Shown piece after piece: positions 56,087 to 61,295 of a stretch of 64,000 nucleotides of DNA. Where the stretch lies: positions 311,441 through 375,440 of the forward strand of contig JALWTT010000015.1 in the NCBI GenBank assembly GCA_027077795.1. The letters run 5' to 3'. The translations under genes were made by a program, and so were the position numbers. The notes under the pieces are model-generated. The model had not been told where the DNA came from and did no database searches. It worked only from the letters and a program-made list of their open reading frames with translations. This stretch comes from Thermotogaceae bacterium (lineage in GTDB: Bacteria > Thermotogota > Thermotogae > Thermotogales > Thermotogaceae). Position 1 is the stretch's first letter. Each line of letters opens with the position of its first letter.

Positions 56087-56112
56087 ATTCTCAAGGCAAA
56101 GGAGGTGAGTTG

Positions 56113-57012
56113 GTGAAAGCTGCTCTTGTTTGGAATGATGAACTCTTGTCGTACGATTTCGGAGAGGGTCACCCTTTGAGAAGTGAGCGATGCAAATGGG
56201 GTGTTGAGGAAATCTCGAAAATTGAAGGGCTAGATGTGATCCCACCAAGATATGCGTCCGAGGATGAAATCGCTCTTGTTCATACAAATGAATACATAGA
56301 AATGGTGAGGAAAGGATTGGCAGGGGATCTCGATACCCCTGTTTCGCCCAGCCTTTTCAATCCGGCTCGTCTCTCAGTTGGTGCGACATTGAAGGGAATA
56401 GATCTCCTGAGAGAAGGATATAGTTTGGCTATTAACGTTTGTGGAGGATGGCACCATGCTTTTGAGAATAAGGCGCGGGGTTTTTGCATCTTTAACGACG
56501 TGGCTATAGGCGCTAAGTATGCTCAGAAGAAGGGGTTCCCTAAGATCTTCATAATAGATTGGGATGTCCATCATGGGGATGGAACTCAAAGAATATTCAA
56601 AAAGGATAATTCTGTATTCACCATGTCTATTCATCAGCATCCATCCACCCAGTATCCGTATTTCTCTGGTTATGAGAGGGAGAATGATCCCACCAATTTA
56701 AACGTGCCGATTCTACCTTCAGAGGATGAACAGGAGATAATGAAAAAAGTTTTGCCACTTATTCCGCGGTTTGTGGAACCCTTTAAACCAAACTTGATGA
56801 TAGTTCAAATGGGTGTTGATGGTTATAAGGGAGACCCAATGTCCGGTATTGACCTCTCTGAGAGGTTTTACGACGCTGTTTCTAAAACTGTATCTAGGTG
56901 TGCAAAAAACAACGATTTTCCTGTGATTCTACTCGGCGGAGGAGGGTTTAATTTTCCCAAGACCGCTCAGCTATGGGCTCTAATCGTGGAGAACTTTATG
57001 ATGGAGATGTGA
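56113..57012 (+). CDS. Histone-deacetylase-family protein (acetoin utilisation / acetylpolyamine deacetylase-like)
   Basis: A 299-residue zinc amidohydrolase of the HDAC/AcuC/AphA superfamily. CGGWHHAFENKARGFCIFND has the catalytic His pair, IIDWDVHHGDGTQ provides Asp and His zinc ligands, and QMGVDGYKGDP the second Asp ligand, so the active site is complete. Bacterial members deacetylate acetyl-CoA synthetase, acetylpolyamines or other small amides; the substrate here is unknown. Thermotoga makes long and branched polyamines, which makes acetylpolyamines an attractive guess. GTG start 7 nt from GGAGG (AAAGGAGGTGAGTTG). Confidence 0.9.
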   Translation: MKAALVWNDELLSYDFGEGHPLRSERCKWGVEEISKIEGLDVIPPRYASEDEIALVHTNEYIEMVRKGLAGDLDTPVSPSLFNPARLSVGATLKGIDLLREGYSLAINVCGGWHHAFENKARGFCIFNDVAIGAKYAQKKGFPKIFIIDWDVHHGDGTQRIFKKDNSVFTMSIHQHPSTQYPYFSGYERENDPTNLNVPILPSEDEQEIMKKVLPLIPRFVEPFKPNLMIVQMGVDGYKGDPMSGIDLSERFYDAVSKTVSRCAKNNDFPVILLGGGGFNFPKTAQLWALIVENFMMEM

Positions 57013-57039: not shown

Positions 57040-57378
57040 GTGGATGTTATAAGAAGGATATTTGAAATCGTTGAGAATATGGAAGGAATAGATCCGGTCA
57101 TTTTAGACATGAGAGACACTCCTATGCCAACGGATTATTTTCTCATAGTGACGGCGAATTCCGATGTTCATATGAGAAGCCTTAGAGAGAGAGTGGTACA
57201 CTTCATAAAGAAGGAGACAGATCTTCAGCTGATATACTATGATAAGGGTGAAGGATGCGATTGGGTGATAATAGACGCTGGTGACGTTGTCGTGCACATA
57301 TTTACAGAGAGGGGTAGGGAGTTCTACGATTTAGAGGGATTGTGGATAGATGCAAAACGCCTTACTTTCGCTATCTGA
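57040..57378 (+). CDS. rsfS: Ribosomal silencing factor RsfS (Iojap family)
   Basis: A 112-residue protein that binds L14 on the large subunit and blocks subunit joining when nutrients fall. LDMRDTPMPTDYFLIVTANSD near the N-terminus, GEGCDWVIIDAGDVVVHIFT and REFYDLEGLW are diagnostic. GTG start at 57040, 10 nt after GGAGG. An upstream in-frame TTG at 57019 would place the ribosome-binding site inside the gene. It overlaps the following unknown gene by 29 nt. Confidence 0.92.
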   Translation: MDVIRRIFEIVENMEGIDPVILDMRDTPMPTDYFLIVTANSDVHMRSLRERVVHFIKKETDLQLIYYDKGEGCDWVIIDAGDVVVHIFTERGREFYDLEGLWIDAKRLTFAI

Positions 57379-57868
57379 AAGTGGGGCGGTTGTTTTGCAA
57401 ACTGCGCTTTACACCCTTCCGAAAGTTGAAGTAAGGCAAAAACTTAGTGGAATATTTGGATACCATAGAAATCAGATAGAAAGGCTCTACAAAAAGGTTG
57501 TTGAATCTGGAAGAATAAGCGAGAAATTTCTATCTCTCTATACAAAAGCTGTTGAGCATCTCAAATCTGGGGATATATCGAGTTTTAGGATAATACTTGA
57601 AAAGTTGGAAGTGCATTCCTCCAAGGATGAAGAAAGTTTGAGGTTTGAATACAACCCACCGTGTGTAGATTGTGCCTTGATTTCCATAAGCGAGGGAGCT
57701 TACGCTGCCCGGATACTTAAAGAAGGTCCAGACGTTGGAGGGAGAAAGCACTTCAAGAAGGTATTTCTCATATATAACCGGAGAGGAGAAGTAAGAGTAT
57801 CAGGGGGAATGGTTTCGATCGAAAAACTCGTGGAAACTGTTCAAAGTACTTTTGCAGCAGTTGCCTGA
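57350..57868 (+). CDS. Protein of unknown function
   Basis: A 172-residue protein with no family that I recognise. The first 85 residues are predicted helical and charged (VRQKLSGIFGYHRNQIERLYKKVVESG). A central NPPCVDCALISISEGAYAA contains a CxxC pair, and the C-terminus looks beta-rich (KKVFLIYNRRGEVRVSGGM). The ATG lies inside the end of rsfS, overlapping by 29 nt, and the next gene begins 13 nt after its stop. The codon pattern and tight packing argue that it is real. Confidence 0.7.
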   Translation: MQNALLSLSESGAVVLQTALYTLPKVEVRQKLSGIFGYHRNQIERLYKKVVESGRISEKFLSLYTKAVEHLKSGDISSFRIILEKLEVHSSKDEESLRFEYNPPCVDCALISISEGAYAARILKEGPDVGGRKHFKKVFLIYNRRGEVRVSGGMVSIEKLVETVQSTFAAVA

Positions 57869-58780: not shown

Positions 58781-59650
58781 GTGGTTGTCAGAGTGGATCC
58801 TAAGAAGGCAGTCTCCCTTGAAACAACTGTTGTTGCACATGGACTACCAAAGCCCATTGGTGTAAATACTGCAATTGAGATGGAGAGAATAGTTGAGGGG
58901 GAAGGCGCCCAGCCTGCAACTGTAGGTATTCTCAATGGAGAGATAATCGTCGGAATGAGAAAAGAAGAGATGGAAAGATTGGTGAATGAAGGTAGTGTGA
59001 AGATTGGAGCTAGAGAGATACCATATGCTTTGGCAAAGTCCCTAAACGCGGATACAACTGTGAGTGCAACTATGAGGATATCAAAGATAGTTGGAATAAG
59101 GGTTTTTGTAACCGGTGGAATAGGAGGAGTTCATCGGGGAAAGTACGATGTCTCGCAGGATCTTGTGGAGCTTTCTAAAAACAGAATGGTGGTGATCTCC
59201 GCAGGTGCGAAGTCCATCCTCGATCTCAGAACAACGGTGGAAGTTTTGGAGACTCTCGAAGTTGTGGTCGTCGGCTATCGAACGGATGAATTTCCAGCAT
59301 TTTACAGTTCGTTCAGCGGAATAAAGCTCAACATGAAGGTTGACACGGTAGAAGAAGTGGTGGAAATCTTTAAGTGGATGGAGAAAGTAGACATTGGCGG
59401 AGCTCTCTTAGTTGTAAATCCCATACCTAAGGAGTATGAAATACCATTCGAAGATGTCCAAAAGTGGACACTCAAGGCTGAAATGGAAGCTGAAAGGTTC
59501 GGCGTAAAAGGGAAAGAAGTAACCCCATTCTTGCTTTCAAAAATCTCTGAGTTCAGCGATGGGAAGACGCTCATGGCCAATGTAGAACTCTTGAAGAACA
59601 ACGCTTTTCTCGGCGCAAAGGTGGCGGTTGCCCTGGGTGGTGGATCGTGA
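58781..59650 (+). CDS. psuG: Pseudouridine-5'-phosphate glycosidase
   Basis: A 289-residue enzyme that reversibly splits pseudouridine 5'-phosphate into uracil and ribose-5-phosphate. SLETTVVAHGLPKPIGVNTA, ATVGILNGEIIVGM, ADTTVSATMRISKIVGIRVFVTGGIGGVHRG and SAGAKSILDLRTTVEVLETL (catalytic Lys region) are diagnostic of the PsuG/IndA family. No pseudouridine kinase (psuK) is next to it. GTG start behind GAGGGGTGATCTC, and its stop overlaps the next gene by 4 nt. Confidence 0.94.
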   Translation: MVVRVDPKKAVSLETTVVAHGLPKPIGVNTAIEMERIVEGEGAQPATVGILNGEIIVGMRKEEMERLVNEGSVKIGAREIPYALAKSLNADTTVSATMRISKIVGIRVFVTGGIGGVHRGKYDVSQDLVELSKNRMVVISAGAKSILDLRTTVEVLETLEVVVVGYRTDEFPAFYSSFSGIKLNMKVDTVEEVVEIFKWMEKVDIGGALLVVNPIPKEYEIPFEDVQKWTLKAEMEAERFGVKGKEVTPFLLSKISEFSDGKTLMANVELLKNNAFLGAKVAVALGGGS

Positions 59651-60699
59651 GAGCGTTTGTGAGCGTGGACGATGGAAAAAACTTAGACGTTTTTTTAAGT
59701 TGGATGAGGAAGAATGGGGTAGAAGTGAGTGAAAAACTCCATAATGAGAGGTATGACATGGTGGTTGTGAATCTCCCCGTAGATCTTCCAAGATCTGAAA
59801 AAAGACTCATGAAGAGCGAGAAGCAAAGAGAGGCTGGAATTCTTGCAAGGGCGGCTCTTCATTATGAAGACATGTTGCCGGTTTGTGACCCAGAGGATTA
59901 TGCACTCGTTATGGAACTTTTTGAAAAGGTTGGAGATGTTCCAAAGAGTGTGAGGAGAATTTTATCCATAAAGGCTCTCCTTCACTCCCTTGAGTATATG
60001 TCTAGGATTCACGCTAGACTTTCAGAGCTTTTTGGAATGGTTGATTACGTTCACACCGTGTGGAAGGTGAGAAGAAGGGTTCTTGAGAAGAGCTATACGG
60101 AGGATTACCTTTCAGATCTACCGGAAAGGGTTTTCGTGGGAAAAGAGAGGCCACTCATACCACTTTACGTGTTCGCTCTCAATAGTATTCCGAAGGGATC
60201 CATCATGGTTTTCAACAGAGCTATGCCGATTTTTGCATCTTTGTCCTTTGAGGAATTCATGGGCGGTGGCGTTCTGGTTTACAACGGTATACTCAACAGA
60301 GAGGTTAGCTACGATCTGGTAGTTGCAAGGGGTGGAAATGCAGATGTCATTGACAAGAACTCTGATAATGTTTTTATATCTTTGTGCAGTGAAGGAGTTG
60401 GCTACAAATTTGAGGTAGAGAGAGATGACCTGACAAAGCTGGAGAGGCTTGCTCTGACATTTGTTTTTCTATCCCCAGCCTATACGATAGCAGTCTTTAA
60501 AAATGGCAGGTTGATAGGGATCAGATTCGAAGCGATGAGATATCCAAATCTTCATAATGTTCCTGCTGGGGAAATCTTAGCGGTTAATTTTAATTTAGAA
60601 AATCTCGACTGCGAGAAATATGATCGTGTGCTTGCACCGTCAGCCTCTGAGAAGGTGAGGAGAGATTGCGAATCAAAACTTCTCTTGAGAAAGGTCTGA
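59647..60699 (+). CDS. Divergent PurH-like protein lacking the catalytic motifs
   Basis: A 350-residue protein that I recognise only as a remote relative of PurH (IMP cyclohydrolase / AICAR transformylase). The N-terminus has an MGS-like beginning and YDMVVVNLPVDLP, comparable to PurH VVVNLYPF. GILARAALHYEDMLPVCDPEDYALV and VPKSVRRILSIKALLHSLEYM follow the PurH LRAAAKN...DP.DY...RR.LA.KAF.HTA..D pattern. FMGGGVLVYNGILNREV resembles AFGGI.A.NREV. It lacks KTLHP, RYGENPHQ and KHANPCG, so neither PurH reaction is expected. GTG start overlapping psuG by 4 nt, and it overlaps comF by 34 nt. Function unknown. Confidence 0.62.
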   Translation: MRAFVSVDDGKNLDVFLSWMRKNGVEVSEKLHNERYDMVVVNLPVDLPRSEKRLMKSEKQREAGILARAALHYEDMLPVCDPEDYALVMELFEKVGDVPKSVRRILSIKALLHSLEYMSRIHARLSELFGMVDYVHTVWKVRRRVLEKSYTEDYLSDLPERVFVGKERPLIPLYVFALNSIPKGSIMVFNRAMPIFASLSFEEFMGGGVLVYNGILNREVSYDLVVARGGNADVIDKNSDNVFISLCSEGVGYKFEVERDDLTKLERLALTFVFLSPAYTIAVFKNGRLIGIRFEAMRYPNLHNVPAGEILAVNFNLENLDCEKYDRVLAPSASEKVRRDCESKLLLRKV

Positions 60700-61295
60700 A
60701 CCTCTTCTTTCCAAATAGGTGTGTTATATGCGGAGAGCACATAGGATTGTCGCAATTGGTGTGCGAAAGCTGCTACGAAAAGCTGTTGTCCAAAGGACCG
60801 GCTGTTACTGTTGAGAGACATAAAAGCTATGACCTCCATTATTATTCGTACTATGAAGGTGAACTCAAGGAGCTTATCCTCTCTTACAAAAAAGGGCGAT
60901 GGAGAGTTTATAAAATTTTGTCAGAACTTTTCTCAAGGCTTTTCGAGTACTTTCAACCATATCCGGTCATCACATATGTTCCATCCACGAGTGTGTCAAT
61001 CGAGTACAGAGGCTTTGACCACATGAAACTAATAGCAAGAGATCTATCGAAAAGGTACGGCATGATGCTTAGAAGCTCTCTGATCCCTGTGAAAAACGAA
61101 CGACAGATTGGGAAGAGCAAAAGGGATAGGGAAAAGCTCTTTGGAAAATACGAGGCCAGGTGTACGGCATTCGAAGTCACATTGATCGATGACGTTTACA
61201 CAACGGGTGCAACGATCAGCGATGCCGTGAGAGCGCTTAGAGAATCCGGAGTCAGGAATATATCAGTGTACGTTCTTGCCAAATCCAAGAGGTGA
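60666..61295 (+). CDS. comF: ComF family phosphoribosyltransferase-like protein
   Basis: A 209-residue protein. The N-terminal zinc finger has CVICG and CESC near residues 18-38, and the phosphoribosyltransferase-like domain ends with the PRPP-binding loop TLIDDVYTTGATISDAVRAL. ComF proteins are linked to DNA uptake across the inner membrane in competent bacteria. YVPSTSVSIEYRGFDHMKLIA is a further family block. TTG start within the end of the PurH-like gene. No other competence genes are in the window. Confidence 0.9.
   Translation: MRIKTSLEKGLNLFFPNRCVICGEHIGLSQLVCESCYEKLLSKGPAVTVERHKSYDLHYYSYYEGELKELILSYKKGRWRVYKILSELFSRLFEYFQPYPVITYVPSTSVSIEYRGFDHMKLIARDLSKRYGMMLRSSLIPVKNERQIGKSKRDREKLFGKYEARCTAFEVTLIDDVYTTGATISDAVRALRESGVRNISVYVLAKSKR

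Follow-up and report, generated by a model that had tools for sequence, protein, structure and literature searches.

A PurH-derived pseudoenzyme encoded beside comF in Thermotogaceae and retained where purine synthesis is gone

A PurH-like reading frame between psuG and comF

What does a gene resembling purH do between psuG and comF, when its product has none of the catalytic motifs of PurH? The question is raised by the window, by which we mean the whole stretch of 64,000 nucleotides of a Thermotogaceae bacterium analyzed here. The original prediction, made from these letters alone, had placed an open reading frame between the two genes. The frame is confirmed: It encodes 350 amino acids and overlaps the end of psuG by 4 nt and the start of comF by 34 nt. 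The features of the locus are the following:

58781..59650, + strand: psuG, upstream; Indigoidine_A family, pseudouridine-5'-phosphate glycosidase (Pfam PF04227, E 1.7e-100)
59647..60699, + strand: PurH-derived pseudoenzyme, 350 aa, GTG start (from reading of the open reading frame, homologs, and profile comparison)
59647..59745, + strand: residues 1-33, first strand and helix of the MGS-like (cyclohydrolase) domain (from alignment on T. maritima PurH, 1zcz)
59746..60036, + strand: residues 34-130, rest of the cyclohydrolase core and conserved helical block CDPEDY...GDVPxxxRRxLxxKALxH...LSELFG (the hhalign match to true PurH begins here)
60037..60696, + strand: residues 131-350, remnant of the AICAR formyltransferase domain with all catalytic motifs lost (from the chain of C-half profiles)
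60666..61295, + strand: comF, double zinc ribbon and phosphoribosyltransferase domain, 209 aa, TTG start

The PurH-like order of motifs that had been described is present, with VVVNL at residues 39-43, ARAALHYED at 68-75, DPEDY at 81-85, RRILSIKALLHSLEY at 103-117, and GGG...NREV at 206-221. The last of these had been counted as evidence for PurH; the stretch exists, but the nearest relatives do not conserve it, and it is therefore weak evidence by itself. Among 12 members of the family, G96, D97, R103, R104, K109, S119, and F129 are invariant. Homologs of the protein show 55%-59% identity within the genus of the window and 37%-38% in two further genera.

Farther upstream in the window, a 172-aa open reading frame (57350-57868) lies between rsfS and a phosphotransacylase gene; it is 48% conserved in one related genome and belongs to no Pfam family. 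A protein of the histone deacetylase family is encoded at 56110-57012, near rsfS.

Descent from PurH

Taken alone, the window protein scores 20.6 bits against Pfam PF01808 (E 3.3e-4), below the cut-off of 25, and 14.2 against TIGR00355, for which the cut-off is 528; with phmmer it matches PurH 4ehi at E 5e-4 and, weakly, ForH at E 1.8e-3. We built a family profile from 12 members of one GTDB family (f1, see below), the window protein included. All 12 match PF01808, the window member under the curated cut-off. Against the PDB, the profile retrieves PurH at E 2.5e-9, and the PurH-like ForH (E 7.9e-5) is the sole other match above noise. Profile-profile comparison, the check that had been proposed with the original prediction, also leads to PurH: hhalign places the family profile on 27 true PurH proteins with a probability of 99.1 and E 4e-19, the match lying mainly over residues 34-130.

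For the C-terminal half, direct comparison of the profile with the true AICAR formyltransferase domain (AICARFT) is weak (probability 4.4%-38%). The same profile matches, collinearly, the C-terminal halves of a second PurH lineage in other Thermotogota (probability 97.4, E 1.3e-11), and these halves in turn match true AICARFT (probability 100, E 8e-43); as controls, the reversed profile reached 0.3%, and none of 20 column-shuffled profiles exceeded 0.8%. With the N-terminal half matched directly and the C-terminal half through these intermediates, we infer that the whole protein is PurH-derived; as judged from sequence comparison, descent from PurH appears virtually beyond doubt. AlphaFold, run twice with five sequences each, gave low-confidence models (mean pLDDT 48 and 45). 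PurH is the top Foldseek match for both of these models, with E values of only 8e-3 to 2e-2, which is compatible with PurH descent and does not prove it. A scan of genome contigs with the single window sequence gave no match, and an alignment-based scan matched four Thermotogaceae MAGs only.

In comparison with PurH of T. maritima (TM1249, PDB 1zcz), the order of domains is collinear, the cyclohydrolase core and helical linker being directly homologous and the C-terminal half related via the intermediates. The window protein differs in having lost both active sites, in lying outside any purine locus, in being kept without the pathway, and in being shorter, as had been predicted (350 aa vs. 452-510 aa for true PurH). 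ForH (PDB 6nko), a PurH-like cyclohydrolase with a role in formycin biosynthesis, has the conserved helical block in common with the window protein; unlike it, ForH consists of the cyclohydrolase domain alone, and the match is confined to that block.

Loss of both active sites

None of KTLHP, RYGENPHQ, and KHxxPCG (KHANPCG in the original prediction) is present in the window protein, either in the sequence or in the corresponding alignment columns. The catalytic residues of the cyclohydrolase and the formyltransferase are taken to be those known for PurH/ATIC, the columns themselves being read from the alignment. About 47 residues carrying the cyclohydrolase substrate site are deleted; on 1zcz, the gap corresponds to T. 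maritima PurH residues 31-77, with the SGTA and KTLHP segments. At the IMP cyclohydrolase columns Lys (KTLHP), Tyr, Asp (IDIGG), and Lys (AAAKN), the window protein has a gap, Pro, Lys, and Leu. At the AICARFT columns, RYGENPHQ is replaced by Leu or a gap, and the Lys-His of KHxxPCG by Asn-Arg. The family shows no conservation at the catalytic positions of PurH. The window protein is a pseudoenzyme of PurH descent that has lost active-site residues and segments of both sites, and its residues suggest that it almost certainly has no PurH catalysis.

The same positions bear on whether the protein could be a new enzyme of uracil/ribose-5-phosphate chemistry alongside PsuG, as had been proposed, or a ForH-like ring-closing enzyme of C-nucleosides. 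Such an enzyme would fit the 4 nt shared with psuG in the window genus and the weak ForH matches (E 1.8e-3 for the single sequence, 7.9e-5 for the profile), but adjacency to psuG is limited to one genus, the ForH match covers the same helical block as the match to PurH, and the catalytic positions hold nothing conserved. We consider a new enzyme of either kind highly improbable.

A second PurH lineage in Thermotogota

We surveyed 61 related genomes, all from Thermotogota, and the restriction to this phylum reflects what was looked at. We refer to the Thermotogaceae-type family that includes the window and Thermotoga as f1, to its sister family as f2, and to the other families as f3-f11. Two kinds of PurH-like gene occur among these genomes. 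True PurH (452-510 aa) keeps its catalytic residues, and the Thermotoga copy is identical to TM1249/1zcz. The second lineage, found in most Thermotogota sampled, is recognized by the signature GDVPxxxRRxLxxKAx...LSELF, and the window protein groups here. A tree of 69 sequences, built on only 108 columns, splits the two at 99/90 support; inside the second lineage its branches are long and not all trustworthy.

Judging from their residues, members of the second lineage appear to range from cyclohydrolase-competent to catalytically empty. In genera g7, g8, and g14 of f3 and in genome G003, true PurH is reduced to a gene for AICARFT alone, and none of the four cyclohydrolase residues is missing from the second copy, which is presumably the working IMP cyclohydrolase, i.e., part of a split PurH. 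This arrangement is described mainly for archaea. We observed it in G003 (L044:5769-6434 and C30:2873-3547) and in f3 genomes such as G017, G021, and G015, the separate IMP cyclohydrolase having 199-445 aa with its residues intact and the separate AICARFT about 300-340 aa. In archaea, the stand-alone IMP cyclohydrolase domain is PurH2, e.g., AF1811 (PMC6797443). The second-lineage copies of ~200 aa in f3 and G003 are similar to it, with all four cyclohydrolase residues kept, whereas the window protein has a C-half remnant and none of these residues.

Other families depart further from the enzyme. In f2 and f8, the cyclohydrolase Tyr of the second copy is replaced by Arg, and PurH is found elsewhere in those genomes. 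The f3 genus g12 (G031, G033, G035, G039) has lost the purine pathway and kept a cyclohydrolase-like protein of ~205 aa, in which Ser takes the place of the catalytic Tyr in each of the four genomes. Copies of f4, f5, f6, f9, f10, and f11 (439-508 aa) have lost residues of one or both sites, and in those of f1, window and Thermotoga included (346-379 aa), both sites are gone. A single phylum offers a natural series from enzyme to pseudoenzyme: a likely working cyclohydrolase, a cyclohydrolase without its Tyr, and a stripped scaffold.

Retention without purine synthesis

Pathway genes were assessed by family searches. In the three genomes of the window genus (93%-96% complete), these searches found no purC, purM, or true PurH, and no hisF match above the background level of TIM barrels; the PurH-like frame is the only PF01808 gene in the genus. 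Across the survey, 13 of 61 genomes are without purM, purC, and true PurH/AICARFT (G000, G001, G002, G004, G007, G031, G033, G035, G039, G045, G053, G056, and G058), and they are distributed over at least six genera-level groups; the G056 assembly consists of a single contig, whereas G045 and G053 are drafts in which gaps are possible. A second-lineage copy is kept in 12 of these 13, the exception being G007, whose comF is cut at a contig end. The gene therefore does not leave with the pathway, and its function very probably lies outside purine synthesis. The copy is also present in 42 of the 48 remaining genomes, so its retention is not special to those that lost the pathway. In one Thermotoga genome (G011:C1:1291846-1292509), purC is in two pieces, which suggests a frameshift or sequencing error.

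Between Thermotoga homologs, dN/dS is 0.10-0.19, indicative of selection. In the window genus, where synonymous sites are saturated, pN is 0.16-0.28, far below pS and about equal to the pN of comF. The reading frame is intact in every f1 relative that has a copy. Purifying selection maintains the gene, also in genomes that have lost the purine pathway entirely. Its position as the sole PF01808-like frame in the genome might point to a cryptic or minimal purine enzyme; against this stands the loss of purM and purC as well, and the substitution rates and intact frames argue against a decaying pseudogene. Either reading has hardly any probability left, and the pseudogene was dropped on the evidence of purifying selection and intact frames.

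The original prediction had offered sensing of ZMP (AICAR), or of a similar nucleotide, as one possible function, which PurH descent would suit. The usual sources of ZMP/AICAR are the purine pathway and hisF; the window genus, with no purM, purC, true PurH, or hisF, has no known route to it. In addition, the SGTA/KTLHP region with the cyclohydrolase substrate site is deleted, and the formyltransferase motifs are gone. ZMP sensing is very unlikely on these grounds, and the candidate was dropped. What stood of the original prediction is its broader statement, a degenerate and repurposed protein derived from full-length PurH, which is supported by the hhalign match (99.1), the loss of the active sites, and retention without the pathway. 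Most likely, this pseudoenzyme has been recycled for a different, non-enzymatic job. That it persists in several lineages from which purine synthesis has disappeared speaks for a second function; literature searches on a link between PurH-like proteins and comF, or on a PurH pseudoenzyme, gave nothing relevant and no description of such a function.

Association with comF

The predicted link to psuG did not extend beyond the window genus, in whose three genomes alone psuG adjoins the PurH-like gene, and a psuG partnership was dropped for this reason. The lasting neighbor is comF, directly downstream from the copy in 13/13 f1 genomes that have one (window included), even at 24%-30% identity to the window protein, and likewise, as the shorter form, in 10/10 f2 genomes with a copy. 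Copies with and without a true PurH in the same genome, which had been sought next to psuG across Thermotogota, do occur, but beside comF. The 34-nt overlap with comF is identical in five genomes (G000-G004), and the reading frames overlap in most f1 genomes. The PurH-like gene and comF show similar protein identity and dN in pairwise comparisons. In T. maritima, too, the homolog sits beside comF (TM1584).

We suggest that the PurH-derived pseudoenzyme is a physical or functional partner of ComF, a reading based on sequence and gene order to which we assign a probability of roughly 0.45. The protein would work without catalysis, would be made in step with ComF by translational coupling, and would fold as a trimmed PurH scaffold, probably dimerizing via the conserved helical block (GDVPxxxRRxLxxKALxH...LSELF); this scaffold would hold or position ComF, a zinc-ribbon/phosphoribosyltransferase protein, in its task. 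A protein-protein role is favored over sensing because the helical block is conserved and the ligand-binding parts are lost.

Gene order can be inherited without interaction, and this counts against a partnership. In its chief rival reading, the protein is structural or regulatory and free-standing; its position beside comF would be inherited gene order, and its role, common to the second lineage, would be ancestral, non-catalytic, and independent of ComF, such as nucleotide binding or the regulation of purine uptake or salvage. In f3-f11, none of the copies adjoins comF; their neighbors there include MCP in f3, CheW in f5, FliM in f10, and SahH in f4. A ComF partnership therefore cannot be the ancestral or universal role of the lineage. 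The unlinked role would also fit the xanthine/uracil permease beside the copy in f2 (gene order permease-copy-comF-MCP), the UPRTase and another phosphoribosyltransferase beside it in one f8 genome, and the copies of f2 and f3 g12, in which Lys/Asp/Lys of the cyclohydrolase site are retained but Tyr is replaced, the pattern expected if binding takes place without turnover. Yet the nucleotide-binding segment itself is deleted in f1, and there the adjacency to comF outlasts divergence to 24%-30% identity, beyond the usual inertia of gene order. We regard the unlinked role as possible, if somewhat unlikely.

If the pseudoenzyme is a partner of ComF, the known tasks of ComF become relevant. In other bacteria, ComF takes over single-stranded DNA arriving through the membrane channel and passes it on into the cell, and ComFC has partners in ComFA and ComFB of B. 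subtilis. Like the window protein, these are encoded beside comF and, should our reading be right, work with it; they differ in belonging to families unrelated to it as far as known. Among the competence proteins described in the literature searched, none belongs to the family of the window protein. Natural transformation has been demonstrated in two Thermotoga strains and, with the T. maritima homolog beside TM1584, makes the function testable; Thermotoga sp. RQ7 and RQ2 are naturally competent. In Helicobacter pylori, ComFC connects the transport of DNA with the handling of ssDNA; its ligands are PRPP, nucleoside monophosphates, and ssDNA (PMC9005727). A genome paper lists TM1584 as the curated comF of T. 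maritima, describes the competence genes as not grouped into operons, and mentions no partner (PMC5637354). The window genome has comEC, so that DNA uptake is possible, although the gene is nearly universal (60/61 genomes) and its presence does not discriminate. That the pseudoenzyme may act in DNA uptake specifically is, from sequence, unlikely though worth entertaining. Slightly more doubtful again is the full scenario, in which a purine enzyme, duplicated within Thermotogota and deprived of both active sites several times independently, would have become a dedicated ComF subunit, an unrecognized component of DNA uptake or ssDNA handling in Thermotogaceae including T. maritima.

ComF itself takes an unusual form in part of f3. 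The best match to ComF in genera g8 and g12 is mostly part of a frame of ~1120-1320 aa (G017, G019, G029, G031, G033, G035, and G039), with no better stand-alone comF match in those genomes. In one such frame that we read, L112:1-2904 (G031), a phosphoribosyltransferase domain is joined to a RecQ-like DEAD helicase.
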